In this document: in pieces, positions 9,401-50,981 of the stretch
Layout of the letters: every line of letters begins with the position of its first letter
Numbering within the stretch: the stretch's first letter is position 1
NCBI GenBank assembly: GCA_964017185.1
Contig: OZ024871.1
Coordinates: 23,040,488 to 23,104,487 of the forward strand
Length of the DNA: 64,000 bases
Reading direction: 5' to 3'
Origin: Rugalucina vietnamica
Taxonomy: Eukaryota; Mollusca; Bivalvia; Lucinida; Lucinidae
Translations under genes and position numbers: made by a program
Notes under the pieces: generated by a model
What the model was told of the DNA's origin: nothing
The model's database searches: none
The model's input: the letters and a program-made list of their open reading frames with translations, nothing else

Positions 9401-12400
9401 CCCATTTTCGCCCCACCTACTGATTGGCCCATCTCATATGAGCTGAAATAATCTTGAAAGGGACGTAAAACTGAATTAAAAATAAAATAAATAAATAAAA
9501 GTAATTAAGGGTCAAAGTTCTAGTCATACTTACTCATAATGTGAAAGAAATATTATCAGATACCCATTGTGTGTTGAGATATAATACAAAATCACTGAAC
9601 CATGAAATAAGGTTATAGTAACCTATAGGTATCTTTGGGTTAAAGGTCTGGTCATACTTATTCATAATCTGAAAGAAGTATGAAAAAATACCAACTTAGT
9701 GTCAAGATATAAGGCAAAATCACTGAACCATAAAATTAGGTCACAGTGACCTAAGAATACTTTACTATTATTTAGGTCAATGGTCTTGTCATACACAAAC
9801 ATATCAATAAAGAAGTATGTTCACATACCATATAATGAACCCTGAAATTTGGTCACAGCGACATAAGTCCTTTGGAGTCAAAGGTCTGGTCATACTCATG
9901 CATAATCTGACAAAAGTATGAAAATATAGCAACTGAGTGTCAAGATATAAGGCAAAATCACTGAACCTTGAAATAAGGTCACAATGACATAGGACTACTT
10001 TAGGGTCAAAGGTCTCAAGACTTGTCATACACAAACCAATAAACCAATTAAGTGCCAAGATATAAGGCAAAATCACTGAACTGTGAAATTAGGTCACAGT
10101 GACCTATAAGTATATTGGGGTCAAAGGTCTGGTCATACTCACTCGTAATCTGAAAGAAGTATGAAAACATACTAATTGAGTGTCGAGATATAAGGCAAAA
10201 TCACTGGACAATGGAAAGTAGGTCAACCTACCCTAACCGTTACGACAAGTCAGTGTCACAAAGATAAAAGATGAATGACCAACCATCTTCCTAAATTCTT
10301 TCTATGTAGAAATAAAAAGGAAATATTTTGGGAGGTCTAGATTTTTACCTCTAGCCCTGAATCTGACCCGGAGGTCTGACGTCATGGAACCTAAAGTGTA
10401 TGAAGTATGAATGCTTCATGATAAGTTGTCAAGATACAGACTCTTTGTAAAAGTTACACAGCAGTACATCCATTTTTTACAGTGTTTTAGTTTTTAACCT
10501 ATAGCCCCATTCCCTAGGCATGGACCCATGGCCCAAGTATGAATGCTTTTTGACGAGTGATTGTCAAGATATGGACTTCAAGAAAACTTTTCCATAGAAC
10601 AGCCATTTTTGAAGGCGTTCTAGATTTAAACCTCCAGCCCCACTCCCTGGCCCTTACCCTGGGGCCCGATGCCATAGAAATGAAAGCTCACCCTACAGGT
10701 CCAAGTCATGAAACCTAAAGTGTATGAAGTATGAATGCTTCATGATAAGTTGTCAAGATATAGACTCTTTGTAAAAGTTACACAGCAGTACATCTATTTT
10801 TACAGAGTTCTAGTTTTTAACCTCCAGCCCCACCCACCCCAGGCATGGACCCAGAGATACGATGCCATGAAATGAAACTCAACCCTTCAGGGTACCTATG
10901 GTCCGAGTATGAAAGCCCCCCTGATAAAAGGTTTTCAAGATATAGACTTCTTGAATACTATATCACAGAAAAGCCATTATTATTAATGGTGTTCTAGATT
11001 TTGACCTCTAGCCCCACCCCCTGGCATGGAACCAGGAATCCGATGCCATGGAATAAAAGCCGAGGCCTACAGGGTGTCAATTGCCCAAGTATCAATGCTT
11101 TCTGATGAGTGGTTGTCAAGATATGGACTTCTAGAAAACTTTAACGCAAGAATGGCCATTTTTAAAGGTGTTCTAGATTTTAACCTCCAGCCCCACCCCC
11201 TGGCCTGGACCCATGAGCCTGATGCCATGGAATGAAAGCTAACCCTACAGGGTATCTATGGTCCAAGTATGAATGCTTTCTGATGAGTGGTTGTCAAGAT
11301 ATGGACTTCTAATTACCGCAAGTATGACACGCATATGCACAGGAAAGTGGACGACAGGGGTGATTACAATAGCTCTATGCAAGAAATCCAAGTCAAGTTA
11401 TTGCTGAAGAACATGTGATTAACAACAAACCACAACCTTTTAGGACCACTGGTCTCTTGTGGTGTCTTTTTCTAAAACTTGAAGCTGTGGCTGTTCAGCT
11501 GCTTTGAAACCACTAAAACAGGGTTCCTCTTGTCCATTTAAATGAATAGGAATACATGTAACTAGTTTTCAAGAAAAAGGATACAAAATCTCTGATAGGA
11601 CCAAATATTTCATCTACTTTTCCAATCTGTTGTTTATTATCTAAGAACACTGGGGCATTGAAATATGGTACTTTTTCATTCGTACATTTACACACGAGAT
11701 CATCTTCACATGGGTGGAGGTAGTGACCTAATTCTGAAACAAGTGAAAATGTTATATGAACACTAAGTGGACATTCAAGATTTAATGAAACAAAAATATT
11801 CTGTTTTTCGCCTCGTTCCTACACAAAATGGGTTGTACTAATGCAGAAGAATGCTAGAGATTATCAAAGCAGGAAATCAAGGAAGATTTTAGCAGAGGAT
11901 TTTTAAAAGGCTTTATGCACATTCAACAGCTATGGTAATGTGGGGACTGTCAGTTATTTCAGACAGTGTCCTTAATCAAGCCCCACTGTGGCAGAATACC
12001 TGCACTAAATAAACAGTTATTTTACCATACATCAATTAATGCTCTTTTTGAATCAGTGGAAGACGAAAAATGGTCATAGCACTATTTTCATTGATGACCA
12101 AATGAGCCGCCCCATGGGAAAACCAACGATCTGCATAGGCAAAAACAAAGGCACAGATCAGCTTCGCCTATTCACCTTGTTTTCGCTACTCCGATAGGAC
12201 AATTCCTCCTCTACGTAACACCTAAATTTCAAGCTTCTAGCCTGCTTCTGTAGCTGTACAGGTCGGTTTGTGTTGGACCTGTTCAAAAACCACATTGTTG
12301 GTTTTCCCACGAGTCGGCTCAAATCTTACCAACAACTTGTTCTGGTGGTCCCTGATCTTGGAAACTTCTGTTGCCAAACCCTCCTCTACCACCTCCTCTT

Positions 12401-13385
12401 CCTCCTCCTCCTCGACCTCCTGAAGTATTCATTAAATCATATGAATATAACTCAAAACAGGATCATTTAATCATATGAATCGCCTTCCACAATCCACAAT
12501 CATTGAATCATATGAAAGTCCTCATCATCAAATCATATGAACTTACACATCATGCTAACCATAATCAAATCATATGAACTCCAATATCATGTTCATAATA
12601 ATCAAATCATACAATCTCTGGCCTGACTGTACCTTCACAACATGTGGCATGACCTCTCCCAGGATGATTAAATCATGCATGAATCCTCCTATATGATCTT
12701 AATTATCATGTGAATCTCCTCATTGATCAATAAATCATATGACTCCATCCCCATCATCATTAATCATATTAATGCCACTCCACAATCAATTAATCATATG
12801 ACTTCATTCTCAACATGATCAATCATATGAATGCCACTCAACAATCAATTAATCATATGACTTCATTTTCAACATGATCTATCATATGAATGCCACTCAA
12901 CAATCAATAAATCATGACTACTTTCCATCCATGAGACATTCAATAAATGAGCCGCCACATCAGAAAACCAACAATCTGCATATGCGAAAACAAAGGTGCA
13001 GATCGCTGATCAGCGCCTTTGTTTCCACTATATGGGTAGCACAATCCCTCTGCTTTATAAATCCAAAATTTCCAGTCTCTAGCCAGCCATATTCTGTGCT
13101 TGTACAGCTCGGTTTGTGTAGGACCTGTTCGGAAACCAATTGTTGGTTTTCTCATGACGGGGCTCAAATCGATTCAGTCAGTCATATTAATGCCACTTCA
13201 ATCACAATCAATAAATCACATGAATCTCACATCATGATCATAAAATCCTATGACTACCTTACCTCTGCCTCCCCTGTCAAACCCTCCACCTCCCCTGCCA
13301 CCTCTCCCCCTGTCTCCACCCCCACGTCCACCACCTCCTCTAAAGCCACCGCCACCTCCACGATCATTGAAACCCATAGCTTGGG
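302..13385 (-). CDS. GAR1: GAR1, H/ACA ribonucleoprotein subunit 1 (five coding exons, 3' end off the window)
   Basis: GAR1 binds dyskerin in nucleolar and Cajal-body H/ACA RNPs, which pseudouridylate rRNA and snRNA, and it is also part of telomerase RNP. Five exons join in frame: 13385-13263 (ATG at 13377), 12419-12330, 11733-11585, 6456-6397 and 413-302. Together they give about 175 codons. The product starts with an RGG-rich GAR domain ([11 protein letters not shown]...). The conserved core follows, with recognisable blocks [49 protein letters not shown] and [16 protein letters not shown] second GAR domain then begins and runs into an intron whose next exon lies left of position 1. All introns are GT-AG and the phases agree. 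Human GAR1 is about 217 residues, so some 30-40 residues are missing. The acceptor just upstream of the ATG implies a non-coding 5' exon, which was not found. Confidence 0.95.
474..720. repeat. MITE family C with central hairpin
   Basis: The centre is GATTGTGGGTA...GTTAGAACCGC, mirrored as GCGGTTCTAA...TACCCACAATC. Flanks read CCATGCAATAAACA on the left and GGGGTATAC on the right. It is inserted 60 nt upstream of the last visible GAR1 exon's acceptor. Confidence 0.75.
766..826 (-). pseudogene. Decayed duplicate of the GAR1 [11 protein letters not shown] exon
   Basis: Minus-strand sequence encodes [19 protein letters not shown], nearly the same as the true exon at 413-302, but the glycine-rich half is lost. 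The acceptor AG and pyrimidine tract are missing: TTGTAAAATG runs straight into TTTCATAG. It lies between the 60-nt exon and the true exon in transcription order, so it is a tandem exon duplicate that has lost its splice site. Confidence 0.8.
848..1052. repeat. MITE family B (about 205 bp, terminal inverted repeats)
   Basis: The left end is ACACCACAACCTCTTTATAA. The right end TTGTAAAGAGGTCCAGGTGT is its near inverted complement. A second copy is at 40356-40552. Confidence 0.7.
1133..2318. mobile_element. 1.19-kb TIR element rich in ACGTCA motifs
   Basis: The left end TATACTGAGAGGATCTAGAA and the complement of the right end, TATACTGAGAGGAATTAGAA, continue as ACTTAAGT on both sides. TA at each border would fit a TA target. 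No transposase ORF is seen. The interior carries many ACGTCA/TGACGT sites. Confidence 0.7.
2352..6044 (+). mobile_element. Tandem-repeat-carrying element, 463-bp units (3' hairpin, GGTGAGCTA end)
   Basis: It starts with the hairpin AGGACCATTGGTCCT followed by CGCTCACCTGA, and ends with GTGAGCCTTCGGCTCA then GGTGAGCTA. The interior has five units of about 463 bp; the landmark ACTATGATGGGCTG recurs at about 2770, 3233, 3697, 4158 and 5733. The last interval is lengthened by the nested element at 4516-5632. There is no coding capacity; the structure suggests a non-autonomous rolling-circle-like element. Confidence 0.75.
4516..5632 (+). mobile_element. Nested tandem-repeat element (about 1.1 kb) inside the 463-bp array
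   Basis: It begins AGAGCTGTCGCAGGACAGC and ends TAGCTCTATGCACTTCGTGC then AGGCGAGCTA. The interior has about six units of about 175 bp containing TGACCTTGACCTCAAGGTCA. The interrupted array unit gives the empty site: CAA before the element, an A-run and TCCATAG after it. Confidence 0.75.
6397..6456 (-). CDS. GAR1: GAR1 60-nt core exon
   Basis: Exactly 20 codons lie between acceptor TTTCAG and donor [26 protein letters not shown]. This aligns with the YFSVKLSENM block that follows LRDF in animal GAR1. Both phases are 0, joining cleanly to IRDF upstream and FFIDP downstream. Its flanking introns are about 5.1 kb and 6.0 kb. Confidence 0.93.
6487..6722 (+). repeat. Hairpin MITE (HP-MITE) copy, well preserved
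   Basis: The ends are TGAGCCGCC and GGCGGCTCA, flanked by TT on both sides. The internal palindrome is GATCAGCTTCGCGGTAACC with its mirror. It lies 30 nt upstream of the acceptor of the 60-nt GAR1 exon. Confidence 0.9.
6770..7036 (-). mobile_element. tRNA-derived SINE with 13-bp target duplication
   Basis: CACAATCAAATTT occurs at 6757-6769 and again at 7037-7049. The minus strand carries an A-box-like GGCCAAGTGGTTAAGA and a B box GGGTTCGAGCCCC. The body contains AGTTCTGCTTGCGGGTG, and the tail is an A/T-rich simple repeat. Confidence 0.9.
7092..7337 (-). repeat. HP-MITE copy, diverged
   Basis: The palindrome here is the GTGCAG-type variant: CTATGCAGTTACTGCACAG. The terminal repeats are worn (TGAACC...ATTCTCA). 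Confidence 0.7.
7434..8967 (+). mobile_element. Tandem-repeat element, 460-bp units, second copy
   Basis: It starts GAGGACCAATGGTCCTGTAA then CGCTCACCTGA. Three units follow (GGGCATGGCGGCCATCTT at about 7822, 8282 and 8742). It ends CCTTGTGAGCCTAACGGCTC then AGGTGAGCTA. The left flank is again ...ACAA. Confidence 0.75.
8970..11392 (+). mobile_element. Long relative of the 4516-5632 element with two different satellite blocks
   Basis: It begins TAAGAGCTGTAGCAGGACAG, directly abutting the previous element, and ends near ACAATAGCTCTATGC. The first block (9.1-10.2 kb) repeats AAGGCAAAATCACTGAAC. The second block (10.33-11.31 kb) has about six 180-188-bp units with GTTCTAGATTTTAACCTCCA. A SINE is inserted at 9244-9496. 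Confidence 0.65.
9244..9496 (+). mobile_element. tRNA-derived SINE with 11-bp target duplication
   Basis: AAAAGTAATTA occurs at 9233-9243 and 9497-9507. The head reads GGTCGAGCGGTTAAGAGCG and the B box is GGGTTCGAGCCCC. It is the same family as 6770-7036. Confidence 0.9.
11585..11733 (-). CDS. GAR1: GAR1 core exon
   Basis: It encodes [17 protein letters not shown], then [16 protein letters not shown] and [14 protein letters not shown]. This is the most conserved part of the family (beta-barrel core that docks on dyskerin). The donor is the less common GTATCC; the exon ends in phase 0. Confidence 0.96.
12113..12321 (+). repeat. HP-MITE copy abutting a GAR1 splice donor
   Basis: It runs TGAGCCGCCCCATGGG to GAGTCGGCTCA, with AA duplicated outside. 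One palindrome arm is partly deleted. Its hairpin-distal end lies 8 nt downstream of the donor at 12329 in the GAR1 (minus) direction. Confidence 0.85.
12330..12419 (-). CDS. GAR1: GAR1 exon: GAR domain into core
   Basis: The acceptor is TACTTCAG and the donor is GTAAGA. The exon encodes glycine-arginine repeats and then [12 protein letters not shown], matching the conserved QGPPE entry to the GAR1 core. Phase is 1 on both sides. A hairpin MITE ends only 8 nt after the donor. Confidence 0.92.
12430..12947. repeat. Degenerate minisatellite around AATCATATGA
   Basis: AATCATATGAAT, AATGCCACTCAACAATCAAT and TTCATTCTCAACATGATC recur with a loose period near 53 bp. The array resumes at 13168-13250 beyond an inserted MITE. 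It fills most of a short GAR1 intron. Confidence 0.7.
12948..13166 (+). repeat. HP-MITE copy in GAR1 first coding intron
   Basis: It runs TGAGCCGCCACATCAG to ACGGGGCTCA, flanked by AA/AA, with a shortened palindrome (GATCGCTGATCAGC). It interrupts the AATCATATGA minisatellite. Confidence 0.85.
13263..13385 (-). CDS. GAR1: GAR1 first coding exon (N-terminal GAR domain)
   Basis: The acceptor TTTCAG precedes 13385 and the start codon is 13377-13375. The exon encodes [15 protein letters not shown] and further Arg-Gly-Gly repeats, and ends in phase 1 at donor GTAAGG. A hairpin MITE lies 96 nt into the following intron. Confidence 0.9.
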
Positions 13386-13439
13386 CTGAAATTAAATAAA
13401 AAACATTGAGACACATCATGAGAAATTTAATAAAAATTG

Positions 13440-13826
13440 AGCCATGTCATCAGAAAACCAAAATTTTGAATATGCAAAAACAAAGGCGCAGATCAGCATT
13501 GCAGTTATCAGCGCCTTTGTTTTCGTCAAATCAATTTCTTCTGTAGAAGCCTCCCTAGTGCAGTGGTTATGTCACCTGGCAGGGGTTGCAGGTTCGATCC
13601 TGGGCATGTACAGTCCGTCGCATGGGACTATAAAATGAGTCTCCATATGACCTTAGCTGTTGGTGGGATATAAAACCCCAATCAATCAATCAATTTCTTC
13701 TGTACATTCTAATTCTTAAATTTCCAATCTCTAGCCATCTTCTGCATGTTCTGTAGCTGCAAATGCCAGTTTGTGTCAGACCTGTTTGAAAACCATATTG
13801 TTGGTTTTCTCATGACGCAGGTCAAA
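13440..13826 (+). repeat. HP-MITE copy split by a SINE
   Basis: Left part 13440-13545 holds the hairpin remnant and right part 13689-13826 ends ATTGTTGGTTTTCTCATGAC. The halves are separated by the SINE at 13546-13688. Confidence 0.8.
13546..13688 (+). mobile_element. Short tRNA-derived SINE with 16-bp target duplication
   Basis: ATCAATTTCTTCTGTA is present at 13530-13545 and 13689-13704. The B-box region reads GCAGGTTCGATCCTGGG and the tail is an AATC-type microsatellite. It is a different family from 6770-7036. Confidence 0.92.
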
Positions 13827-13851
13827 TAGAGAACATTCAAAGTTTTCATTT

Positions 13852-14092
13852 GAGTTGCCGCATGAGAAAACCAACAATCTGCATAAGCAAAAACAAAGGC
13901 GCTGATCAGCTTCGCAGTAACTACGAAGCTGATCAGCGCCTTTGTTTTCGCTACACGGATAGTACAATTACTCTAATTTCTAAAACCAAAATTTCCAGCC
14001 TCTATTAAACCATCTTATGTGACTATACAGGCCAATTTGTGTCGGACCTTGTCGGAACCCAAATTGTTGGTTTTCTCACGCACAGGCTAATT
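13852..14092 (+). repeat. HP-MITE copy
   Basis: The palindrome GATCAGCTTCGCAGTAACTA and mirror ACGAAGCTGATC is intact; the outer ends are worn (TGAGTTGCCGC...CACAGGCTAA). Confidence 0.8.
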
Positions 14093-14146
14093 TCATAGAG
14101 TGAAGTTAAAAATACATTTCTATTGCCTCAGTAGCTGCTGAAAACT

Positions 14147-14574
14147 GGCGAGAGTTGCATAAGCATAGCGCTATCGAGCGCTTTGTAACTCTTTGCTATG
14201 CAACATTACGCTACAAGAAAGCGCTCGCGGGCGCTACATAACGTTCCTCTGAGATGCCTCTCAGAAAGAAGCCTGCCGTTGCTAAGGAACAAAGGCTTAC
14301 TTCAAGAAACACAATGGCGTCGTCAATATTTGACCGCATGAATTGTGACATTTTATGAGATGAAAATGTGACAGTAATCATCTGTGGAGTCCAGAAAACA
14401 ATTTTCTAGTCTTCTGAACGGAGAAAAACTGATTTGTTGCACGTTTTTGGTATCGCTAGTCGCCGCCATTTTGGAAAGCGCTCTAACGTAACGAACTGTT
14501 GCATAGAAAGAACAAAACGTAGGAAAGTGCTACGAGAAGAAGATAGAAAGCGCTAGCCTTATGCAACTCTCGCC
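14147..14574. mobile_element. 428-bp TIR element (GGCGAGAGTTGCATAAG)
   Basis: The left end GGCGAGAGTTGCATAAGCAT and the inverted right end GGCGAGAGTTGCATAAGGCT continue as AGCGCT. The interior holds several GCGCTNNC-type motifs and no ORF. Confidence 0.75.
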
Positions 14575-14580
14575 TGGATA

Positions 14581-15466
14581 TGAGCATGTGCGTGAGAAAA
14601 TCAACAATTCCGGTTTGGACTAGGTCCTACACAAACCAGCCTGTACAGTTACAGAAGCAGACTAGAAGCTTGAAATTTCTGATTTAAGAAGATGGAGGGA
14701 TTGTACTATCCATCAGGTCGAGTTGAAACGTGAAAATGAGTATATACCTATTTTTAAGAATATACTTAGTTTTAAGGATAGCAGCTCATAGTAAGAGATA
14801 GGAAAATCAATGCAAAAAACTAACTAATGACTTTATACAATAAAGAGAAAGAGTTGCAAAACCAAACTTGGCCAGTTGTTAAAGGGTCATATACACTTTC
14901 AGATTTTAAAATAATTTTTAACATCTACCGATGCATTGTTGTGTTAGCACGCTTTTTGTTTTGTATGTATTTTCCCATTTGAAGATTTATTGATTATTAC
15001 TAATCATTGTTTACTTTGAGAATATCCCAGTGGGAGGTATCTATACTAAGTGAGAGAAGGGTGTGTATTTGTGTGAAATTCAAGGGGTTGTCTCATACAT
15101 ATCCTAAATGCATGTTTCCTTCAAAATGCAGTAAATGCAACGGTAGAAGTTGAAAATTATTTAAAAATCTGAAAGTGTATATGAACCTTTAACAACTGGC
15201 CAAGTATGGTTTTGCAACTCTTTATCTTTACTGTGTAAAGTCATAATTTAATTTTCTGCATTGATTTTCCTATCTCTAAGTATGAGCTGCTATCCTTAAA
15301 ACTAAGTATATACTCAAAAATAGGTATATACTCAGTTTCACGTTTCAACCCGACCTGTCCATGTAGCGAAAACAAAGGCACTGATCAGCTTCACTGTTAC
15401 CACGAAGCTGATCTGCGCCTTTGTTTTCGTCCAAGGATTTTCTGGGTTTTCTTATGCAGTGGCTCA
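14581..15466 (-). repeat. HP-MITE copy hosting a 644-bp insertion
   Basis: The outer ends are TGAGCATGTGCGTGAG and CAGTGGCTCA, flanked by TA on both sides. The two halves (14581-14713 and 15358-15466) join into a normal family member once the insertion is removed. Confidence 0.85.
14714..15357. mobile_element. 644-bp foldback element with about 200-bp inverted repeats
   Basis: The ends are CAGGTCGAGTTGAAACGTGA and its inverse TCACGTTTCAACCCGACCTG. The arms continue as GAGTATATACC, GATAGCAGCTCATA, GAAAATCAATGCA and CAACTGGCCAAG on both sides to about 14920 and 15165. TCCAT is duplicated at 14709-14713 and 15358-15362, within the host MITE. Confidence 0.92.
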
Positions 15467-15780
15467 TATGTCATTGTGACTTACACAAGGTGTATCACTA
15501 TACATGGCTGCAACTGAAATTTAGATTTTCTGTCATTTTTATACGCAGGTACAAACAATACGTCACAAACCACATGGTCTATAAAATACAGATAAGTGTC
15601 CCATGCAAAGGTATAAAAATATAAATTCGTTTGGTGTATATACAGTAAAAATTAATAAATACCAAACTGTCTTCTTTCTCGATGAAAAACAGCAGTTGTA
15701 AACAAAAGTTTGTTTTCACGTGTCTTTTCAAAACACCGCAAAACAATGTCGTAAATTTTCAAAGTCGTAAAATTTGCTTC
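15467..15780. other. No gene seen
   Basis: AT-rich unique sequence between an HP-MITE and the GGCC-repeat border; I see no conserved exon or repeat. Confidence 0.5.
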
Positions 15781-16002
15781 GGTAACTGGTCATTTCGGCC
15801 CATGACAATTTCGGACCAAAACAATTTCGGCCCATGGCCATTTTGGGCCCATGAATATATTACCAATGTCTTGTATTTGTAATTGTTTAGATGTCTTCTT
15901 CTTTGAAAATGATAACCCTTAAGGAAACACCTGAAATGGATCAGTTCTTTTCTTGGGGGTCGAACCAAGACTGTAGTGCTTGAGAGGGAGTGTTCACCAC
16001 AG

Positions 16003-16600
16003 GTATCAGTTACATCAGGGGTGCCAGAGGGCTCAGTGCTCGGCCCACTTCTCTTCTTGCTCTACATAAATGGTCTCCAAAATCGCACTTTGGGCTTTGT
16101 AAAAAGAAATGCTAGTACAAAAACAAATCGGTTAAAGAATTAGCCTATGAAACCTTTGTCAGGCCTAACCTTTAATATATTTCCACCGTATGGAGCCCCC
16201 ACACTGATAAAAACATAGAAGCAATTGAAATGGTCAAAAGGAGGGCTGCACGGTGGGTTTCAAATCAATATTCCTCGTACGACAGTGCGCAATCTGGGTC
16301 GGCGCTCCCTTGAATATCGTCGTTATGACTCGCGGCTAGCGATGTTTTATAAAATACATTATGGCCTTGTTGCAGTGCAGATGCCGTCATATTTTGAGCG
16401 TCCCAAGAGAATCATTCGTCACAGCCAATACATTCCTCTCGGTTTCCGCAAGGTATTTGCTCGTACTGATTATAACAGATGTTCGTTCTATCCCATGACG
16501 ATTGTTTTATGAAACCGGCTCCTTTCAGAAATAGTACGTTTACCTGATCTTGACTCTTTCAAGAGGGAGGTGAGGTGATCAACTATTCAATGCCGTAGCG
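16003..16600 (+). pseudogene. Reverse-transcriptase remnant (CR1/Jockey type, C-terminal half)
   Basis: Frames read [20 protein letters not shown] (RT motif before the catalytic box). They then jump to FVRPNL, VQ-like RRAARWV remnants, RRSLEYRRYDSRLAMFYKI and the tail block CSFYPMTIVLWN. The segment between the RT palm and the tail is deleted, and several frameshifts are needed. Confidence 0.75.
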
Positions 16601-16611
16601 AGAAATATTGT

Positions 16612-17770
16612 TTTAAAAAGGTACAAGTAGGCAAAGATCAGGAAAAGGCGCAATCAGAAAAAGATTCCCACTCCAAAAACCGAGGTGGGAAAAAACCAAA
16701 CTAACAATCAGGTACTTATACCATGAAACATATCGTAAGCCGAACGAGCAGCTATTTTCCCAATAGGTGGCCACTCAGTTACCTTAACTTAACTAAAAAT
16801 ATGAAAACATACATAAGGCGCCAACAGCACAAAAAAATTTTATACACCAAGACATAAAACAAAAAGAACCACCACAGAAGTATCGACTTGGAACGATCAG
16901 TAACACAAAGCTACTGGCGGGCTTAAACCGGTTTTACATGGCCATAACCTCACCCTCAGCTTCTGCAGTGGTTCATAACATTTAGTTAGTTATTTGGTCC
17001 TCGTGGTGAATCTCTAACTAGTCAATGAATCATCAAGAACAAACAAATAAATCATGATAAACATCCTGATGAATCAAAAACCAGGACCCACAGACTGAGT
17101 AAGCTGCCCGACGATGGAGATCCCTGGGCGCCGAATAACCTACTAACTCCGGAGCAAAAGAAAAACACCAGTTGGACCCCGGTGGGCCAAGCAACAGACA
17201 AGAAGCTCCGGCCCCAACCAACTAAAATGAATAGCTTTATGTCGGGGCCATCATAGAGTCTGACGCCCGACCCACCGGCGTGCAATTAAAGAAGGCAGCA
17301 TAGCTATCAACCATGATTGGGTTAAAAACTAAGCATGCAGACTGTCGCATAACATTTAAGTTATAACCTATACGTCTGTAACGTGTTATGATTTTTCTGA
17401 ACTGAAAAGAAAAATCATTAATTCCTTTAAGTTTCTTAAATTTGTAAACCAAGTCACCATAAAATTCAGGTTCCGAAAGGCCCTCACTTAAAAGCGTCTT
17501 TAACCCAACATTATATTTGGAAATCAATTCATAGTGTCTACGATAAAATTTAGAAAATGTTTTTCGAAGTTTATGATACCGATAGCCCTGTTGGAGAAGT
17601 TTTGCCGTTAAACATTTATTTCGAGCGTTGAAGTCTGTAACATGATTGCAGACTCTAGCAAACCTAATAAGTTGCGAAATGTATACACCATAAGAAGCAC
17701 GACGAGGAACGTCACCATCCAAAAAAGGAAAATTTACTATATCAAAATCAAAGTCATAGCCTGCTTTTAA
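16612..17770 (-). pseudogene. Penelope-like element copy, C-terminal coding part and 3' tail
   Basis: An open stretch (17722-17237, extending in frame to about 17760) reads FPFLDGDVPRRASYGVYISQ, then RNKCLTAKLLQQGYRYHKLR, SEPEFYGDLVYKFKKL and IGYNLNVMRQSACLV. The tail ends GCCTACTTGTACC after a CCCACCTCGG/GTGGGAATC stem. It is 5'-truncated and lacks the RT core. The same protein is present in the plus-strand copy at 19.2-20.7 kb. Assignment to Penelope-like elements rests on the RT motifs there and on the hammerhead ribozymes next to it. Confidence 0.7.
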
Positions 17771-18429
17771 CCTCTCAACTTTACTAACAAATTTTACGAA
17801 ACCTTACTCCACTACGTTCCGTTGCGAACTTTGATGGTTCTATTTGATCAAAACAATTTCCGATTGAATAAAACAGGATTACACATGGCTGACACGTGGT
17901 GAGTGCATCCGAACTTGAGCTGGACGTCATGGGGGTGCCTTGACGTCGCGGTGCGCGCTTTGGTGCGTGAGCATGGAGGGCCGCTTTCTGATTGGCTTAG
18001 TGTTGCGGACCAAAAATGACCGCAGATGTGTAAATCTCACAGAAATTATGGATTTAAAGCAGGAAATCAGAGACTTTTCTTATGGATTATCATCTGGAGG
18101 CAAAATTTTATATCTCTATGAACAGATGGCGAAGTGAGGGTGAGCATTTGAAAATTTGATGTGTAAAGTAAAACAGTTTTTCCCCGATGTACACTTGGCA
18201 ATGAGGCTGTGTGACGCATTCGGAATGCTACTCTGTATACATGCATGTAGATTGTTAACAACAGCTGAAGGTATGAGTCTAGGATCAATACCCTCAGAGA
18301 AAATGGAATCTTGATGACTGACAACTTGGGTGAGGCTAATATGTGTAATACTAGGCAGTTTCAGTCTGCCTTCACTCGCGAATCAAATGATGAAATTCCC
18401 TCCAAAGGCACAAATCCCTTCAACGCTAT

Positions 18430-18725
18430 GGGTGAAATTACAGTTGCCCCCTAAGGGGTCATTAAACTGTTGAATAATTTGAATAAACATAAGGTTCCCG
18501 GGCCGGATGGTCTGAGTGCTAAGGTGTTGAAAGAATGTAGTTCTGAAATTGCTTGGCCTACATCTACAATAATCGCTTGCTCAGGGTGCTGTACCAGACG
18601 ATTGGCGACAGGCAAATGAATGTAACCCCGGTATTTAAGAAAGGTGAGAAATAAGATGCAGCTAATTATCGACCGGTGTCGCTTACTTGCATCTGTTCGC
18701 TGTTGCAAAACTCAAGAGCACATAA
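18430..18725 (+). pseudogene. Reverse-transcriptase remnant (N-terminal palm, CR1/Jockey type)
   Basis: It reads LNKHKVPGPDGLSAKVLKEC followed, after frameshifts, by VTPVFKKGEK and AANYRPVSLTCICS. These are the RT blocks that should precede the [10 protein letters not shown] block, which lies 2.4 kb upstream on the same strand, so the two pieces are rearranged or come from different copies. Confidence 0.75.
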
Positions 18726-18889
18726 TAGTCAGCAATATAAACAAGCACCTGGCCTTTGAAAATAAAAGGTAAAAAGAGGTGAAAGCATTCTGTAGTTAAT
18801 ACCCACTTAAAAGAATTACCCGAGCTTGTCCACATAGGATTTTTCTACTCTGTATACCACATTGCCACATAATCTGATTAAAGAAAAAC

Positions 18890-19200
18890 TACTATATAAT
18901 TTATGTTATCTCCCTTTGAACATTTTTACTGCTTCGAAAGGATCCAAACTTTTTTATATTTTATTTCGATTTGATAGCGTGGACATTCAAAAGAGCATTA
19001 AATAAAATATTAATTGTTAGATCCTTTGGAAGCAGTAAAAACATTCAAAGAGAGGTGGCCCATATTGTACAATTTCGGGTAATGAACCTTCATCAGTGAC
19101 CCTTTACAAAACTGGCAGCGAAAGCCAGACATTCATGATTGCTGCAATTTCAAGAATTTTCACCAGTATAGTCTAAATCAAAGACTCATATTCCCAAAGG
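18890..19200 (-). repeat. Penelope-like element pseudo-LTR fragment (minus)
   Basis: In the minus direction it contains GTCTTTGATTTAGAC, GTCTGGCTTTCG and a hammerhead motif, then AATGTTTTTACTGCTTCCAA. All are shared with the plus-strand region 20300-20470. Confidence 0.7.
19057..19102 (-). ncRNA. Hammerhead ribozyme motif, degraded
   Basis: On the minus strand: GGGTCA (stem I), CTGATGA, a GGT/ACC stem II with loop TCATT, GAAA, the self-complementary TTGTACAA (stem III), TA cleavage box, TGGGCC (stem I return, 5 of 6 pairs). The pair that closes stem II next to the core is A opposite C instead of G-C, which should weaken it. Confidence 0.75.
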
Positions 19201-19204
19201 GGCC

Positions 19205-20702
19205 ATAAAACTATCGTTCACTTTACTTGGCCTGTAATGACAGAAAAGCTTTTTTCACTTCCTCTGACCAAAGTCGATATACACTTTGGTCATGTCAGAA
19301 TGTATGCGATGCCTTATCCTATCTCCTGGATAATATTTATATTAGATTTGGAACCAAGTTATACAGACAAATTGTTGGAATCCCGACGTGTACAAATTAC
19401 GCCCCTCTCGTAGCTGATCTATTTTTATACTGTTACGAAAGAGATTTCATGAATTCTCTGAAACATGACAATCAAGCTGATGTTATCGAGGCTTTTAATT
19501 CCACTTCTAGGTACCTCGATGACATTTTGAACATTAACAATCCTTATTTTGAAGGCATGGTCAAAGAAATTTATCCCCCTGAACTACAGTTGAATAAAGC
19601 AAACAACACAGATACCGAATCCCCATTTTTAGACTTACATCTTTCTCTTGCAAATGAATTCGTTTCTTCTAAACGATGATAAACGCGATGACTTTGATTT
19701 TGATATAGTAAACGCTCCGTTTTTAGATGGTGAGTTCCTCGCCGTGCTTCTTATGGCGTATACATTTCGCAGCTTATTAGGTTTGCTAGAGTCTGCAATC
19801 ATGTTGCGGACTTGATTGCGCGAAATAAATATTTAACAGCCAAACTTCTCCAGCAGGGTCATCGGTATCATAAACTTCGAAAAACCTTTTCTAAATTTTA
19901 TCGCAGACACTATGTACTGATTTCTAAATTTAATGTTAGGCTAAAGACCCTTTTAAGCGAGGGCCTTTCGGAACCAGAATTTTATGGTGACTTGGTTTAC
20001 AAATTTAAGAAACTTTTAGGAAGGCTTGAACAACTAGCTAAATGTTATGAGGACCGAACAACTAACTAAATGTAATGAACCAGTGCAGAAGCTGAGGGTG
20101 AGGTTAGGATCCTGTAAAACCGGTTTATGCCCGCCAGTAATTTTATATTACTGATCGTTCAAAGGCGATACTTCTGTTGTGGTTCTTATTGTTTTATGTC
20201 TTGGTGTTTAGTAAAGATATTTAGAGTTTTCAAAACATTCCAGTTTAGAAAAATACTTCTAAGCAATGTTTAAATTATTTGACCCCGTTTAGGAATGTGT
20301 CTTTGATTTAGACTTCTCGTGTAAATTTTCGAAATTACAGTACAACAGTCTGGCTTTCGTCGCCGGTTTTAAAAGGGCTACTGATGAGGGTTCATTACCC
20401 GAAATTGCGCAATATAGTCCATACTATCTCCCTTTGAATGTTCTTATTGCTTCCAAAGGATCAAACCTTTATATTTTATTTATTTTTTGTGCTGTTGACG
20501 CCTTATGTATGTTATCATATTTTAGTTAAGTTTAGGTAACTGAGTGGCCACCTATTGGGAAATAGCTGCTCATTCGGCTTACTAAATGTATTTATGGTCT
20601 TAGTACCTTCTTGTTAGTTTGGTTTTTCCCGCCTCGGTTTTTGGAGTGGGAATCTTTTTCTGATTGCGCCTTTTCCTGATCGTTGCCTACTTGTACCTTT
20701 TG
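19205..20702 (+). pseudogene. Penelope-like element copy with RT core and 3' tail
   Basis: A frame from 19227 reads FGTKLYRQIVGIPTCTNYAP then LVADLFLYCYERDF, the catalytic box RYLDDILNI, and PFLDLHLSLANEF; it stops at 19679. A second frame (19812-20069) reads KLLQQGHRYHKLRKTFSKFY and SEPEFYGDLVYKFKKL. The usual glycine and asparagine of the GIPMGTN-type motif are altered (GIPTCTN). The 3' part is deleted relative to the minus copy, then the shared tail follows. At 20709-20775 a further 5'-truncated copy begins (FQFRKVITRCRRVGYNLNVM), i.e. a partial tandem, which is common in Penelope-like elements. No GIY-YIG domain is seen. Confidence 0.72.
20375..20420 (+). ncRNA. Hammerhead ribozyme, type I minimal, all core bases present
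   Basis: GGGCTA (20375-20380) pairs fully with TAGTCC (20415-20420) as stem I. The core is CTGATGA (20381-20387); stem II is GGGT/ACCC with loop TCATT; the core closes with GAAA (20401-20404). Stem III is the very short palindrome TTGCGCAA, followed by the TA cleavage dinucleotide at 20413-20414. Penelope-like retroelements are known to carry such ribozymes in their pseudo-LTRs; here it lies between an RT copy and its tail. Confidence 0.88.
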
Positions 20703-20779
20703 ATTTTTATTTTCAATTCAGAAAAGTCATTACGCGTTGCAGACGTGTAGGATATAACTTAAATGTTATGCTACCGTCT

Positions 20780-22335: not shown

Positions 22336-22357
22336 CCTTTGATTGTTGATTTAGTTT

Positions 22358-22436
22358 TTTCCCACCTCGGTTTTTGGGGTGGGAATCTTTTTCTGATTGC
22401 GCCTTTTCCTTATCGTTGCCTACTTGTACCTTTACG
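22358..22436 (+). repeat. Penelope-like 3' tail, third copy
   Basis: CCCACCTCGG...GGGTGGGAATC then TTGCGCCTTTTCC and GCCTACTTGTACCTTT, the same as 20620-20702 (+) and 16612-16700 (-). Confidence 0.7.
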
Positions 22437-22985
22437 TAGAATTATACGCACCAAACATAAAGGCATACGAGTACGTCAAACAGCATATCAAACTCTTGTA
22501 AGCCTCAAGTTGAGTAAACCTCCCCTGTATGGAGCCCTCATAATAACAAAAACATAAATTAGATCGAGGCTGTCCAGCGCAGGACAGCACGCTGGGTCAC
22601 CCATGACTTTTCTTCATACAGTAGTGTGACTCAGATGATCAATACCTTAGGATGGAGGTCTTAAGAACAAAGACGTGCAGATGCCAGGCTCATAATGTTC
22701 TATAAAATTGTACATGGTTGAGTTGAGATACCACTACCATCGTACATCCACAGACAGATCCGAATGACAAGAACTACACACCCATAAAACTTTATTCAAA
22801 TCAAAACAACAGCAAACTACTACAAATATTCATTTTTTCCCTTTAGCAATCGTGCAGTGGAACAACCTCCCAACCTCGGCTGTCCTTTCGGAAGACCTGA
22901 CTACGTTCCTGGCTACGTTCAGGTCTGCCATTTGCAACATTAACCATGCCATAAGCGCAGGATATGTTGTTTTGAACAGCTTTTA
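22437..22985 (+). pseudogene. Reverse-transcriptase C-terminal remnant (CR1/Jockey type)
   Basis: Scattered frames match the retroposon C-terminus: ALI-like region before an altered WDP block, VQRRAAR-type remnant, LGWRSLEQRRADARLIMFYK-like sequence with one stop, SFFPLAIVQWNNLPTSAVLS, and TFRSAICNIN. Many stops and frameshifts. Confidence 0.65.
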
Positions 22986-24205
22986 ACATTTTTCTTCTTC
23001 TTCATACTAACACTATCATACTTTTTAGCCTTAGTAAACTCATTTTAACTTTGTTCTATCAACATTTTCTTTGACGTTACTTAAAATTAACGTTTTACAT
23101 CAAAGGGTGCCAATTTGCACATAATCCTCGCGAGAGGGTGTTGCTAGGTAGCCTTGACTACAGGTGTAATCTCATTTCTGAGTTCTTTTAGAACTAAAGG
23201 TTTTATGTCGTCCAGGCCTGTGGCTTTATCGGTATTCAGGTTTAACTATGATAATGATTTAAGAATTCCTATTGAGCTGATTGTAATTTCTGGCATTTTA
23301 GGATATTTGCACTTAATGTTTTCAAGGGTTTCTTCAAAAAGAACTTGAATTTTGTTAATACATAGCTGGCTAAGACGCAAGTGAGACAACTGTGAAAAAA
23401 GTGAAATAGCTACTCTAATTTTAGTTTGTATCAAATGTTACAAATACCTGTTTGAAGTGATGTCTGTCCTTCGTCTTTCCCGAGGTTCTCTGTGTCTGAA
23501 ACAGTTTATCACATTTTATTTTAGTCTTTTTTTTTTCTTGAGTGATTCCACTATTGATTTCAGTGAGCTTGGAACCAGTAAATAATGCAACAATATGATA
23601 ACTTTCGAAATTAAAACGTCATGGGTCGAGTTTTTTTGGGCCGAGTTAGTTATGGGCCGAGTTTGTCATGGGTCGAGTTGGTTATGGGCCGAGTTGTCCA
23701 GTTACCATTAAAAGGAGGTGCGCCGAAAAATCAGCGGCGGAACACATCTAACCCACTACGAGACGAAATGACCAAAATAAAAAAAATAGTTGCCGTAAAC
23801 AGGTCGCAGAACTTCATTTCCGGAACCGAACTTTGAGAAACGTTTTTGAACTTTTTATTTGTTCTTTGAAACAGAATACCCGATCTCCGAAATAACCATG
23901 CCTCGCGAGGGACGGTAAGTTCGAACATGGAATGGTCGTCACCGGGAACCCAAATTATCTGAGGCATAGTCACAACCTTCACTTTTCTGCAGCTCTTTTC
24001 AGAAATTTCAAAGAACATGACACCAAAACACGCAAACATGACTTACCACATGCCATCTAGTCGAAAAGATCCAAAGTTCATCTTCATCTTCCAAGAAAGT
24101 GCTGGGCCCAAGCATGAGCATAGTCGCACTGTGAAAAACTATGTACATGTGTGAAGGAAAGGTCTTTGTACAGGTTAAAAACAGGATAAAAACATCTCTC
24201 TGGGC

Positions 24206-27200
24206 TTAGTAGAGGACTGGACCAGCGCCGACGCAGCTCTTGAAGGCATCAAGCGTTGGTGCTGTTACTGCGGAGACTGGCAGGGCGTTCCAGAGGCGTA
24301 TCGTTGAGGGGAAGAAAGAACTCTTGTAGGCATTGACGGAGCAGTAGGGTACTAAGAATCGAATCCCATGACCTCTAGTGGCTGTGCCGGAATGAATCAG
24401 GTACTTCTCGGCCGGAATGTCGACGAGGTTGTTGACGATTCGGTACATCATCACTGTTTTACATTGCTCATGGCGATGCTGAAGATCTTCCCACCCTAGA
24501 TTCTGGATCATTGAAGTGACACTGCTGGTTCGGCGGTAGTCATTTTGGCAGAATCTTGCGGCTCGTCTCTGGACAGCTTCGACCTTTTTAATTCCGTCCT
24601 TCGTCGATGGATCCCAGACTGTGGATGCGTATTCGACTTGAGGTCGGACGAGGGTCTTATAGCTTGCTTCCTTTATGTCCTTTGGGCATGATGAGAGATT
24701 CCTCTGTAGGAAGGAGATAGTCTGGTTGGCCCTTTTTGTCACCATGTCAATGTGGCTATTCCAGGATAGGTTTTTGTCGATGGTGACGCCGAGGTACTTT
24801 GCTTTGGTTGTCTCCTTGAGTACTTGACCGTGGATCTTGTATGTTGACTGGACAATCTTCCTTTTTAGGGTGATTCTGATGTGCTCACACTTGTCTGGAT
24901 TAAAAGACATCTGCCAGTCTCTCTCCCATTCCTGAAGGCGATCTAGGTCTTCTTGTAGTGACGCTACATCATCTTGGCTTGAGATCACTCTGTAAAGTAG
25001 GCAATCGTCAGCAAAAAGCCGTGCTGTAGAGGAAACTCTGGATGGCAGGTCATTGATGTATATCAGGAATAAGAGAGGTCCTAGTACTGTCCCTTGTGGA
25101 ACACCAGAAGTAACAGGGGAAGAGGAGGAAGTTTTGCCGTCTAACACCACTTTCTGGTATCTGTCAGCCAGGAAGCTCTGGATCCAAGATAGAGTCTTGT
25201 TCCGTATGCCGTAGTGGTGGAGCTTGGCAGCAAGGCGTTGATGAGCCACTTTATCAAACGCCTTGCTGAAATCTAGAAGAATGGCGTCGACTTGTTGCCT
25301 CTTATCCAGTCCGCTGGCCAGGTCATGAATTGTAGTGATGAGCTGTGATTCACAGGACCTTCTCTTTCTGAAGCCGTGTTGTTGGTCACTAAGAATGTGA
25401 TGACTGTCAATGTACTTCATGAGATGGCTGTGGACAATATGCTCCATGGCCTTTGAACAGATTGAGGTTAAGGAAACAGGACGGTAGTTGGAAGCCTTGC
25501 TCTTGTCTCCCTTCTTGAAGAGTGGGGTGATGAATGCTCCTTTCCAATCACTGGGTACTGTGCCTTGGTCGTATGATGCTTGGAAAATCAGAGTGAGGGC
25601 AGGCGATATGCTGGATGCCATCTCCTTCAGGAAGCGTGAAGAGATTTCATCTGGGCCACTTGCTTTATGTGGGTTTAAGCCTTCAAGTATCTTCTTGACT
25701 CCATTTTCTTGTATGACTAGAGGTGGAGCTTCAGACTTTAGGCTGTTTCCCATGGATGGTATATTGCTGCAGTCTTCCCTGGTGAAAACCGATGCAAACT
25801 GGTCATTGAGAATCTCTGCCTTGTCACTAGCTTCCGAGTAGTTGGTCCCATCCTTTTTCAATGTTGCCACCCCTGAGCTGTCACATTTCATACCCTTGAT
25901 GTAGGAATAGAGCTTCTTATTCTTGGAGCCAGGTTCGCTTACCATGTTCCGGATGTAGTTATTATGAGCGTCGCGGCATGTGTTCTGAGCATCTTTCTGT
26001 ATTTTCTTATATCTCGTCCAGTCATCAGGATTTTTGGAGATTCGTGCTTTCTTGTATGCCCTTCTCTTCTTCCGTACTTGTCGTCGGACATCCCGATTGC
26101 ACCAGGGTTGGTTGAAACGGGTTGAAGTATACTTGGAAGGTACATACTTGTTGACACTTTCAATGCATGTCTGCTTAAAGGTGGTCCAAAGTGTGTTAAC
26201 CTCTGTGTTTGTGGAGTTGGCATGTACAAACTCTGCTGTAAATTGCTTCAGGTCATCCGACATAGAACTTTTGTCTGCCCGTTTCCATAGGAATATCTTT
26301 CTTTTGACTGGCTTTTGACGAGCTGGGAGAATATTTGTATCAACCAAGACAATGTCATGATCACTGAGGCCAGGTACTGTAGAAATTCTGTCAACTAGGG
26401 ATGGGCGGTTGGTACAGAAGATGTCAAGAATGTTGTTGACTCTGGTGGGGAAATTTACCATTTGTTCACAGCCGATGTGGTTGAAGGTGTCTATGTATGC
26501 TTTGTTGATGGAAACTAGATAATTGTGTCCAGTAATGGTATCTGTACTCCAGTCTATGTCAGGGAGGTTGGTATCTCCACCAAGCCAAATAATGTGGTCC
26601 TTAAATCTTGAAGATAGGTCAGAAACTGCGTTGCAGAGGTCCTGGGTATAGTCAGCTTTGTTGTCAGTAGGTCTGTACATACAACCTAGGATGATGGGCT
26701 TCTTCAGGTCCTTGCAATTGAGTGAGGCTGCTACAAATTCTGATGTGGCAGGTGTGTCTACTTCTGATGCATCAAGATCATGCTTAGCTATGATAGCTAC
26801 ACCACCATGACTGCTGTTGGGCCTATCTTTCCTGGCTACAAATTTGTAATTTGCAGGTAGTACTTCTCTCTCTGCTATTGTGGGATTTAGCCATGTTTCT
26901 GTTGCGAGGATGATATCTGGGTCACTATACTCTAACATCGCCCAAAAACTTTCTCTCTTAGACCGTATACTCTGAAAGTTGATGACTAATATACGTGCCT
27001 TCTTTTTGGAGAGTGGGACATTCCTGTGTGTCGTCGGTGATGATGTGAAGTCGGGTAATCCTATGCTTCCTTCTGTATTCACCGAAGAGAATGAGGTCTG
27101 GCTTGGGGTGCTACAAGTAGGGTCGGAAATATCAAAATCCTCAAACAAGCTTGTGTTGAAGTTTGGGAGGCCGCATCCACAACAATACCAGCTGATATCT

Positions 27201-27598
27201 GTCTGTTCCAAAGGCTCATACAGGACAGTGGGCATGTTAAGACAGTTTTTATGGAACCATTGATCACAGTTGGAACAGGCCACTGAGCGGACATTTCTTG
27301 ACCAAACACATGCTTTCCCACAGATGCCACAGGGGTATTTAACTGTTCTCGGTCCAGGGTTGGGTTGGCAGTCAGATGCATTCAATATCAACAATGAAAA
27401 TAAATACATGAGGTGACCAGTCATACATCGCTTAGGCGCTCTCAATAACATGTGATGTTGGGTTGTCTGTAAGCTGCAGTTGAACAACACTGGGGATATC
27501 CTGATGTTGTTACTTGAAGAGGGCTGTGAGATTTCCAGTCTGTCATTTAGAGTTGCAAAGAATACCAAAAGTAGGAAAACTATCTGGTAAGAATGCAT
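24206..27598 (-). mobile_element. CR1-like non-LTR retroposon, intact 1130-codon ORF (PHD finger, endonuclease, RT)
   Basis: One uninterrupted frame encodes an N-terminal hydrophobic segment (IVFLLLVFFATL). A 2A-like motif DCQPNPGP (residues 76-83) follows a second hydrophobic stretch. Next come a C4HC3 PHD-type zinc finger (CGIC...CSNCDQWFHKNC...CCGCG, about 90-143) and an APE-type endonuclease (about 205-425; ILATETWL, SDHD at 412-415). The reverse transcriptase (about 640-900) has [32 protein letters not shown] and the catalytic FADD at 862-865. The C-terminal region carries VEYASTVWDP and VQRRAARF. The endonuclease nicks target DNA and the RT copies the element RNA there. Lack of stops suggests recent insertion. 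The 3' flank contains GATGAAGATGAA, possibly the tail. Clade (CR1 versus a near relative) is not certain. Confidence 0.92.
27350..27361 (-). other. 2A-like NPGP ribosome-skipping motif in the retroposon ORF
   Basis: Residues 76-83 read DCQPNPGP. The family consensus is D-x-E-x-NPGP, so the glutamate is replaced by glutamine and the position before NPGP is proline. The preceding hydrophobic run (LMYLFSLLILNAS) is typical of retroposon 2A sites that double as signal sequences. Activity is uncertain because of the E-to-Q change. Confidence 0.65.
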
Positions 27599-28204
27599 GG
27601 TCGCACCGGTCAGATGTAAACAAATCGACTTCCGGTTTGTGACGTCAGGTTGACAAATCAGAAAAAGTCAGTTTTCTCTGTATCTATGGGTCTGATTGTG
27701 ATAGGAGGTATGGAGATATTCAAAGGACTGTTTGGCAAACCAGTAGGACCAGATCTTTCTGCCGATTCGACGTAGAAAACCACAGAATTAATGTAATTCC
27801 CCTGTCAAAAACCGCTGTTGGATCCTTCCTTCACGCATGCGCACTTCTCACGCATGCGCAAGTTGTATCGAAACTGCTGGCATTTGTATCTCTTGTTTGA
27901 AGAGTGTGTCTTTTGCCCGTGTAGACTCTTTGGATTAGGTTAAGGAATGTGGAGAATCTATCTTCGGCCTCGTTTAAGTACATGGGAAGCGGGTCAACTC
28001 GGCTTGAAACCAACTCGGCCCGTGAGTCAACTCGGCCTTGGGTCAACTCGGCCGGGTCAACTCGGCCTCTTATATTTCCTATTACAGTGGGGATATGAAC
28101 GTGAATGATGCTTCTAGATTTTGAATACTAATTTTTAGGTTGATACATTCCGGAAACGTACACAGAAAATGTAGAATGACAATATTTTTAGTACTACAAA
28201 CAGG

Positions 28205-28804: not shown

Positions 28805-29397
28805 ACCCCTTCCTATTGATGCTTCACATAAAATTTGGCTTTGATTGGCCAAGTGGTTTCAGAGGAGAAGACGTTTGAATATTATGGAGATATACATGTA
28901 TATTGCCCCGGAGTGGGGGCACATGAGCCCCTGGGGTCCAATTTTTTTCAGAATCATTAATATTCAGTCCTACTGCCCATTTCCTGCAAGACTTTCACTT
29001 TAAATGACATTTTAAAAGTTTTCCCAATTCAAATGCATTGGCGACCTATGTTGACCTTGCCGTAAATCAAGGTCATCACAGGGTCATGATTTATATACAC
29101 ATTGTAGTGCTTGAGCCATTGATGCTTCATGTCAAGTTTCGTTGAAATCGGTCCACCGGTTCTGGAGAAGAAGATTTTTGAAGGGTTTTTACCATATATG
29201 GGCATGGCGGCCATCTTGGTCATGTGACCTGGATTTCTTATATACACATTGGTTCCTCCTACTGATGCTTCATATAAAATTTGGCTTTGATTGGCCAAGC
29301 GGTTCTTTGAAATTGTGGACGGACGGACGCCGGACGGACGCCGGATCATGGCCATCCTATAAGCTCACCTTGTGAGCCTAACGGCTCAGGTGAGCTA
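28805..29397 (+). repeat. 5'-truncated 460-bp-unit element inside the Mutator-like element
   Basis: Contains ACCATATATGGGCATGGC, GACGGACGCCGG arrays and the complete 3' end GAGCCTAACGGCTCAGGTGA then GCTA. Only about one unit remains. Confidence 0.75.
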
Positions 29398-29639
29398 ATA
29401 AGGTTTTACAGATACAATAGAGATGGCCATCTCATTAAATGTAGACACAAGCTTCAATACACTATTCTCTGTTGTTACTAATTTCCTTATACAGTTGCGA
29501 CACACATGGTCAGAGTAGCTAACAGAACTTAAAATTTCGACTCGTAGATGCTTTTCAATCAATTCACAATGACTTGTCTTTGCACCTTTATTGAAAAGTA
29601 ACAACCTTTCATACTTGTTTTTTCTTTGTTTTCCACATA

Positions 29640-29876: not shown

Positions 29877-29879
29877 TAT

Positions 29880-30935: not shown

Positions 30936-30939
30936 TCCC

Positions 30940-33294: not shown

Positions 33295-33365
33295 CGGCTA
33301 AAGTGCAATTGTCTCGCTGGACTTGTGCTAGAGGTCCCAGGTTCGATCCACGCTGGCAGTGAGGA
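33295..33365 (+). repeat. tRNA-like SINE head fragment
   Basis: CTAGAGGTCCCAGGTTCGAT resembles a B box; no body or target duplication could be traced. Confidence 0.4.
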
Positions 33366-33369
33366 AAAT

Positions 33370-35128: not shown

Positions 35129-50749
<15,621 letters not shown>

Positions 50750-50752
50750 TAA

Positions 50753-50981
50753 TGAGCCATGACGTGAGAAAATTGATCTTTGAGGTTTTCATACCAGCAC
50801 TGTCACAAATCATCCTGTGTAATCACAGAAGAAGGCTAGAAATGAAGTATTTAAGATGAAGACGGATGGTAATATCCATGAAGGGGAAACAAAGGCACTG
50901 ATCAGCTGTGCAGTTTTTGCACAGCTCATCTGCTCCTGTTTTCGCAAAGGCAAAAATTTGGCTTTCTCGTGACACAACTCA
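50753..50981 (-). repeat. HP-MITE copy, 20 nt after the last DDX46 donor
   Basis: TGAGCCATGACGTGAG...GTGACACAACTCA; palindrome CTGTGCAGTTTTTGCACAG (GTGCAG variant). Confidence 0.82.

Follow-up and report, generated by a model that had tools for sequence, protein, structure and literature searches.

Oriented accumulation of a hairpin-bearing miniature inverted-repeat element beside donor splice sites, extreme in DDX46 and weaker genome-wide, in the bivalve Rugalucina vietnamica

The window analysed in this study, a stretch of 64,000 nucleotides (nt) from contig OZ024871.1 of the lucinid bivalve Rugalucina vietnamica (positions 23,040,488 to 23,104,487, forward strand), contains exons of DDX46 and, on the opposite strand, of GAR1, together with copies of HP-MITE, a miniature inverted-repeat transposable element (MITE) with a long hairpin. 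The left (non-hairpin) ends of HP-MITE were found in excess at 5' splice sites (donors), 8 to about 30 nt inside the introns and facing the exon. This excess was extreme in DDX46 and weak to moderate genome-wide, and its peak near donors was not shared by one control repeat. An initial annotation of the window had claimed that the copies lie behind donors more often than chance would place them and in one orientation, which was upheld in DDX46 and, in a weaker form, across the genome.

HP-MITE is a non-autonomous DNA transposon of about 236 base pairs (bp), with inverted ends TGAGCC...GGCTC(A) and the hairpin close to its right end; it has the terminal inverted repeats of a MITE and is, like MITEs, too short to encode a transposase. 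A profile was started from a seed of five copies and then built with 235 positions on 66 near-full-length copies, and an nhmmer search with this profile found 71 pieces in the joined sequence, which consists of the window and the next 80 kilobases (kb), 144 kb in total. The copy number is high, with 11,277 first-look candidates genome-wide, 40 of which were scored. The following full-length copy serves as the type, and its whole RNA fold reached -127 kcal/mol (z -12.4):

52594..52830, + strand, HP-MITE type copy, full length, away from known exons; inverted ends TGAGCC...GGCTCA, with the hairpin, long and almost perfect, close to the right end

Among the 63 copies having both ends, 40 were flanked by a 2-bp target duplication, mostly AA, TT or TA in the context A-WW-T, and 5 by a duplication of 3 bp. 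A target duplication of TA only is the criterion for Tc1/mariner-type (Stowaway) MITEs, and this assignment was rejected because the duplication was TA/TA in 10 of the 63, AA/AA in 13 and TT/TT in 12. Moreover, the GC content of the flanks was alike on both sides (0.351 left vs 0.341 right, P 0.42, in 54 copies away from known exons). Since the target is symmetric and the flanks are equal, the polarity of HP-MITE is not set by target composition, and target sequence was ruled out as its source. Four full copies in one orientation, spaced by 245, 265 and 265 bp, were observed at 730-1739 of another fetched stretch (L004), probably through local tandem duplication that included the flank. At 14713-15355 of the window, a copy appeared by reading to be split by an insert of about 640 bp, the ends of which look inverted.

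The exons of DDX46 were read in frame. Those before 50,557 we take to be DDX46 exons from their open frames and their likeness to human DDX46, and those from 50,573 on were supported by tblastn with a human DDX46 query, by which the gene continues 27 kb past the window, to 91,332 of the joined sequence. A Pfam search of four frames matched DEAD in the last exon of the window and nothing in the other three. The donors of the window that have an HP-MITE nearby are listed below; distances run from the donor to the left end unless stated otherwise, and the two GAR1 donors were placed by reading.

35402..35646, + strand, DDX46 donor GT at 35402 and HP-MITE 35413-35646, at 11 nt
36274..36522, + strand, DDX46 donor GT at 36274 and HP-MITE 36293-36522, at 19 nt
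39812..39930, - strand, antisense HP-MITE fragment 39825-39930 (profile positions 93-211), 13-16 nt from the + strand DDX46 donor GT at 39812
42206..42459, + strand, DDX46 donor GT at 42206 and HP-MITE 42224-42459, at 18 nt
44012..44232, + strand, DDX46 donor GT at 44012 and decayed HP-MITE 44027-44232, at 15 nt
49647..49909, + strand, DDX46 donor GT at 49647 and HP-MITE 49704-49909, at 57 nt
50733..50979, + strand, DDX46 donor GT at 50733 and HP-MITE 50753-50979, at 20 nt
12104..12329, - strand, GAR1 donor at 12329 and HP-MITE 12104-12321, left end 12321 at 8 nt
12949..13262, - strand, GAR1 donor at 13262 and HP-MITE 12949-13166, left end 13166 at 96 nt

When nhmmer left ends were compared with the donor GTs, the copies and distances that the initial annotation had given for both genes were all found to be correct, and so was its statement on orientation: every intact copy near a donor turns its non-hairpin end to that donor, and the sole exception on the donor side is the antisense fragment at 39825-39930, which retains the hairpin. 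The DDX46 donors at 38303 and 38906 have no HP-MITE copy within 60 nt. Among 11 more DDX46 donors downstream of the window, two are followed by HP-MITE at 8 nt and 17 nt, and one at 42 nt.

Counted over the 20 identified DDX46 donors, the first 20 nt downstream contain 7 intact left ends. The DDX46 introns, 53,245 nt in total, have 34 left ends, from which 0.127 would be expected there, so that the observed number is about 55 times the local left-end density. In 20,000 trials of random placement, no more than 3 left ends ever fell within 20 nt of donors, so that the earlier rough estimate of well under one expected copy holds. No intact right (hairpin) end was present within 60 nt of any of the 20 donors. 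The remaining HP-MITE pieces in DDX46 are 14 sense and 15 antisense, and no general strand bias was seen across the gene. Furthermore, the near-donor copies differ and belong, by reading, to different subfamilies, and they are therefore regarded as separate insertions; one hot subfamily shared by all of them was rejected. These copies did not look younger than the others, with scores of 62-249 vs a median of 212. On the acceptor side of DDX46, two antisense copies have their left ends 14 nt (83126; acceptor 83,141) and 26 nt (87508; acceptor 87,535) from an acceptor of the joined sequence, and two or more left ends within 30 nt of acceptors occurred in 1.5% of the random placements. The rule common to both sides in DDX46 is thus that the left end points to the exon, whichever the strand. 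A single right end was placed 47 nt ahead of a DDX46 acceptor (84339, joined sequence).

Several tandem structures were observed in DDX46. At 83245-83511 of the joined sequence, 19-20 kb past the window, an exon end and its donor are tandemly repeated, and GGTAAGT at 83245, 83307, 83369, 83437 and 83499 makes several candidate donors in a row, of which only 83245 was counted as a donor in the placement test. A DDX46 intron contains, at about 44285-47240 of the window, a unit of about 975 bp that is repeated three to four times in tandem, near identical by eye, and an array of a short diverged unit (TATGGACCCCAGGGGCA...GGCAGGATTTATAAAGAGG) at 47390-48880 adjoins this larger repeat.

Genome-wide counts were made with exact word patterns on both strands of the whole 1.09-gigabase genome, for which an intact TGAGCC, CACAAACC and one donor word, GGTAAGT, were required; by reading, both element words would be matched in no more than 2 (36293 and 44027) of the 7 DDX46 copies near donors. 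The counts include some segmental duplicates, and GGTAAGT occurred 11 times in 130 kb of 13 stretches, with an uncertain share of true donors. An earlier count of GGTAAGT followed by any TGAGCC (805, vs 226 in the reversed-pattern control) was set aside because TGAGCC alone also picks up other repeats. The left end faced GGTAAGT at a gap of 0-25 in 197 cases and at a gap of 26-51 in 112 (P 8e-7), and with the donor word strand-reversed 71 cases were found in the near bin. The right end showed no significant excess (58 at gap 0-25, 49 reversed, P 0.22), and the two ends differed at donors (197/71 vs 58/49, odds ratio 2.3, P 4e-4). Of the 197 rows, the first 100 stood above the 71 control rows chiefly at gaps 6-14, which corresponds to a distance of 12-20 nt from the GT. 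According to a rough hand estimate from these counts, one or two per cent of donors carry such a copy.

The control was one unrelated abundant repeat ending in TAGCTCACCTGA, for which 53 cases were counted at gap 0-25, 22 reversed and 56 at gap 26-51. Because elements are barred from exons, any intronic repeat is expected to show an excess of sense over antisense cases, as the control does; the sense/antisense ratio alone is thus insufficient, and these counts were dropped as sufficient proof of donor enrichment. The decay with distance is better evidence, since the near and the far bin were counted on one side of identical words. Left ends dropped by more than 40% from the near to the far bin, or about threefold once the reversed count, made in the near bin only and taken as flat, was subtracted, and the near/far ratio of left ends exceeded that of the control (197/112 vs 53/56, odds ratio 1.9, Fisher P 0.006). 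The initial annotation had named a flat profile around donors, or equal enrichment of unrelated repeats, as grounds against its own claim. The profile was not flat, and the one control repeat shared the sense/antisense excess without sharing the peak near donors. The hairpin end had a lower sense/antisense ratio than the control (58/49 vs 53/22, Fisher P 0.03). In the window, ends of the control repeat lie at 6012-6048, 8936-8971, 29364-29399 and 49059-49095 and carry a short terminal palindrome (AGCTCACCTTGTGAGCC...GGCTCAGGTGAGCT).

The matched words were also examined as splice sites in the first 20 rows of each set. For each set, the 10 most coding-looking frames were chosen by eye for Pfam, so that the match counts are minima. 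The upstream 400 nt of left-donor rows were backed by homology in 7 of 20 cases, one of them weak: Pfam matched 6 of 10 frames (BBS7, CLP1_P, Nudix_hydro, Nucleoporin2, alpha-amylase and, weakly, FAM184), and a search of the PDB with two frames unmatched in Pfam found GALNT1 for one and nothing for the other. In at least part of the left-donor rows, real exons thus end at the GT. Among right-donor rows, Pfam matched 3 of 10 frames (PAN, FYVE and, weakly, PAP2) and the PDB search found MKK6 for one of two unmatched frames. Acceptor rows were backed by homology in 3 of 20 cases, with 2 of 10 frames matched in Pfam (Syja_N, and Drf_GBD below the cut-off) and FPGS found in the PDB for one of two. 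By eye, about 11 of 20 left-donor, 9 of 20 right-donor and 8 of 20 acceptor rows looked coding, a judgement that was not used as evidence.

Outside the DDX46 contig, 4 of 30 copies with an intact left end were found by eye at 9-22 nt after a donor-like site that closes an open frame; one of these frames is RPB6 by homology, one had no match, and one of the four donors is of the GC type. Three further candidates (L023, L024 at 2126, and L027) were inspected and dropped. At L025 6006, the left end of an HP-MITE lies 12 nt past an apparent GC-type donor (GCAAGT) closing an open frame of 52 codons.

The sense/antisense excess at donors was also present in young copies. Copies within one change of a subfamily consensus, in the left segment, made up 31 of the 98 sense rows and 28 of the 71 antisense rows, a ratio of about 2.2-fold after scaling that includes the general intron effect; the 98 sense rows derive from the first 100 of the 197, with three near-identical C2 rows merged into one. 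Older classes of copies gave sense/antisense ratios of 2.5 to 3.7-fold, and subfamily C and divergent copies had the larger ratios. These results suggest that the pattern is not confined to old copies.

On the acceptor side genome-wide, left ends faced CCTGAAAA, the acceptor as read from the element, in 153 cases vs 42 reversed. The first 100 of the 153 rows lay at gaps of 4-23 and stood highest above the control at 12-19. These counts are suggestive only that left ends also face acceptors across the genome.

The explanation that we tentatively favour, as the leading one among several, is that insertion is directed to exons and that purifying selection then leaves an oriented pile-up at exon edges. 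The transposition machinery would land preferentially in or beside exons of active genes, guided perhaps by exon chromatin such as nucleosomes, H3K36me3 or exon-biased gene-body methylation. Purifying selection would clear the hits in coding exons and splice signals and would also thin the copies with the hairpin end against the exon, so that survivors may accumulate where A/T-rich sequence beyond the exon first becomes safe, in most cases with the left end inward. Exon-centred insertion with selection would account for the presence of copies on both sides of exons, for the minimum of 8 nt at donors, for the decay with distance and for the partial polarity; in particular, left ends that face acceptors suggest a process centred on the exon rather than on the donor, the acceptor side being the less firm of the two. 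Insertion directed to exons would also predict copies in non-coding exons. Selective tolerance near donors, which the initial annotation had offered beside U1 or R-loop targeting and an introner-like mechanism, would alone make no peak at the exon edge, because deeper parts of the intron should be safer. Somewhat less probable is a transposon family that recognises exon edges as such, by way of either exon chromatin or the splicing machinery, and that inserts at about 8-30 nt from them, preferring to turn its left end to the exon, upstream as well as downstream of exons. Methylation enriched in exons has been reported for the oyster (PMC3840415).

Several points weigh against exon-directed insertion with selection. 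The study on the oyster also describes its introns as relatively highly methylated compared with other invertebrates (PMC3840415). Hairpin-end rows near real donors do occur, 4 of the first 20 being backed by homology, one of them weakly, and the purging of the hairpin end is not proved, since the ratio of 58/49 did not differ significantly from that of the left-end far count to the near reversed count (112/71, P 0.27). The acceptor counts lack a far bin, and their control word is imperfect, as A predominates in the 10 nt of left flank next to the element. The comparison is based on a single control repeat and a single donor word. Finally, the strength of the effect in DDX46, at 7 of 20 donors, is accounted for by no proposed mechanism.

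The narrow distance peak and the polarity at donors, as well as hits by different subfamilies at 7 of 20 donors of one gene, would also be expected if the transposase or a host partner were tethered at the 5' splice site, either to an R-loop or to a nascent transcript with bound U1, and inserted about 12-20 nt downstream, left end to the donor. However, such tethering fails to predict left ends that face acceptors on the opposite strand, as seen at 14 and 26 nt in DDX46 and in 153 vs 42 cases genome-wide (counted without a far bin), and we consider it unlikely. Similarly unlikely is a general intron effect combined with selection, by which elements abound in introns but are missing from exons, copies with the hairpin end close to a splice site are purged, and the apparent peak combines these effects with local hot genes. 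It agrees with the 53 vs 22 sense/antisense cases of the unrelated control, with the lower ratio of the hairpin end (P 0.03) and with DDX46 being a hot gene, whose 53,245 nt of introns contain 34 left ends, but it gives neither the near/far decay of left ends (197 vs 112), which is absent in the control, nor the roughly 55-fold density near DDX46 donors (7 vs 0.127), and the hairpin-end ratio is not significantly below 112/71. A further explanation, which appears improbable, is that near-donor copies were retained because they aid exon definition or intron removal, the left end being preferred. The scores of the DDX46 near-donor copies, which look no younger than the others, and the larger sense/antisense ratios of subfamily C and divergent copies are in line with retention, yet the pattern is also seen in young copies at about 2.2-fold, and the near-donor copies at 44027 and 90037 decay freely.

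A chance finding in a single dense gene, noticed because many windows were scanned, would suit the exceptional state of DDX46 against the one or two per cent of donors estimated genome-wide. The near/far contrast across the genome speaks against a fluke, as do the 4 of 30 intact-left copies outside the DDX46 contig at 9-22 nt from a donor-like site, one of them in RPB6, and this explanation is quite improbable. Least probable by far is an introner-like origin, in which insertion into an exon made the intron and the donor was recruited from the exon just upstream. MITE-like introners do exist, some with both splice sites taken from the insertion site (PMC9860276). The initial annotation had offered such a mechanism as one option, which is contradicted by the 19 DDX46 introns: they measure 517-16,925 nt, of which the element takes up no more than the beginning. 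Moreover, no exon was found within 500 nt of any donor-side copy in DDX46 with an intact right end. Among five other genes, the right end was recognisable in L090, L091 and L094, with no clear exon within 100 nt by eye; in L091 a likely exon begins about 270 nt past the HP-MITE, and L092 and L093 have no right end in the fetched stretch. An introner origin was therefore rejected for DDX46 and is unlikely elsewhere.

Transposons are expected to stay away from splice sites, and an oriented accumulation there runs counter to this expectation. A family that accumulates with one polarity would mean either that exons carry a mark in germline chromatin exact enough to direct integration or that a sharp, oriented pattern can be sculpted by purifying selection. 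Accumulation at exon edges would naturally open a way to alternative donors and to the evolution of introns, and DDX46, with some 20 donors in one gene, could serve as a test bed. Among known systems, mPing and other MITEs prefer genes, and HP-MITE resembles these gene-preferring MITEs in being non-autonomous and in its inverted ends, A/T-rich target and many copies. Ty1 and Ty3 are tethered to RNA polymerase III factors and Tn7 inserts at glmS, and the likeness lies in a fixed spacing and orientation of the insertion relative to a functional site; however, the distance of HP-MITE is broad (8 to about 30 nt), it may be found on both exon sides, and the tether here is hypothetical.

Introners are MITE-like elements that generate introns (PMC9860276). 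HP-MITE is like them in being a short DNA-transposon-like element at splice sites, and the same study reports that introners are biased to nucleosome linkers (PMC9860276), but the DDX46 introns are long and HP-MITE occupies only their first part. Intronic transposable elements of mammals likewise show an orientation bias near exons, and those less than 20 bp from exons occur mainly at donors; in contrast to HP-MITE, which is over-represented just beside exons, they are scarce there (PMC3088655). The initial annotation knew of no MITE family described with such a placement. In agreement with this, no case of a MITE preferring the exon edge with one end to the exon was found in searches of the open-licence papers of PubMed Central.

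Two further features of the window were observed by reading. A second, partial copy of a GAR1 exon lies at about 746-850, as compared with 300-415. On the minus strand, the stretch at about 24100-27600 resembles a long retrotransposon of the reverse-transcriptase type.
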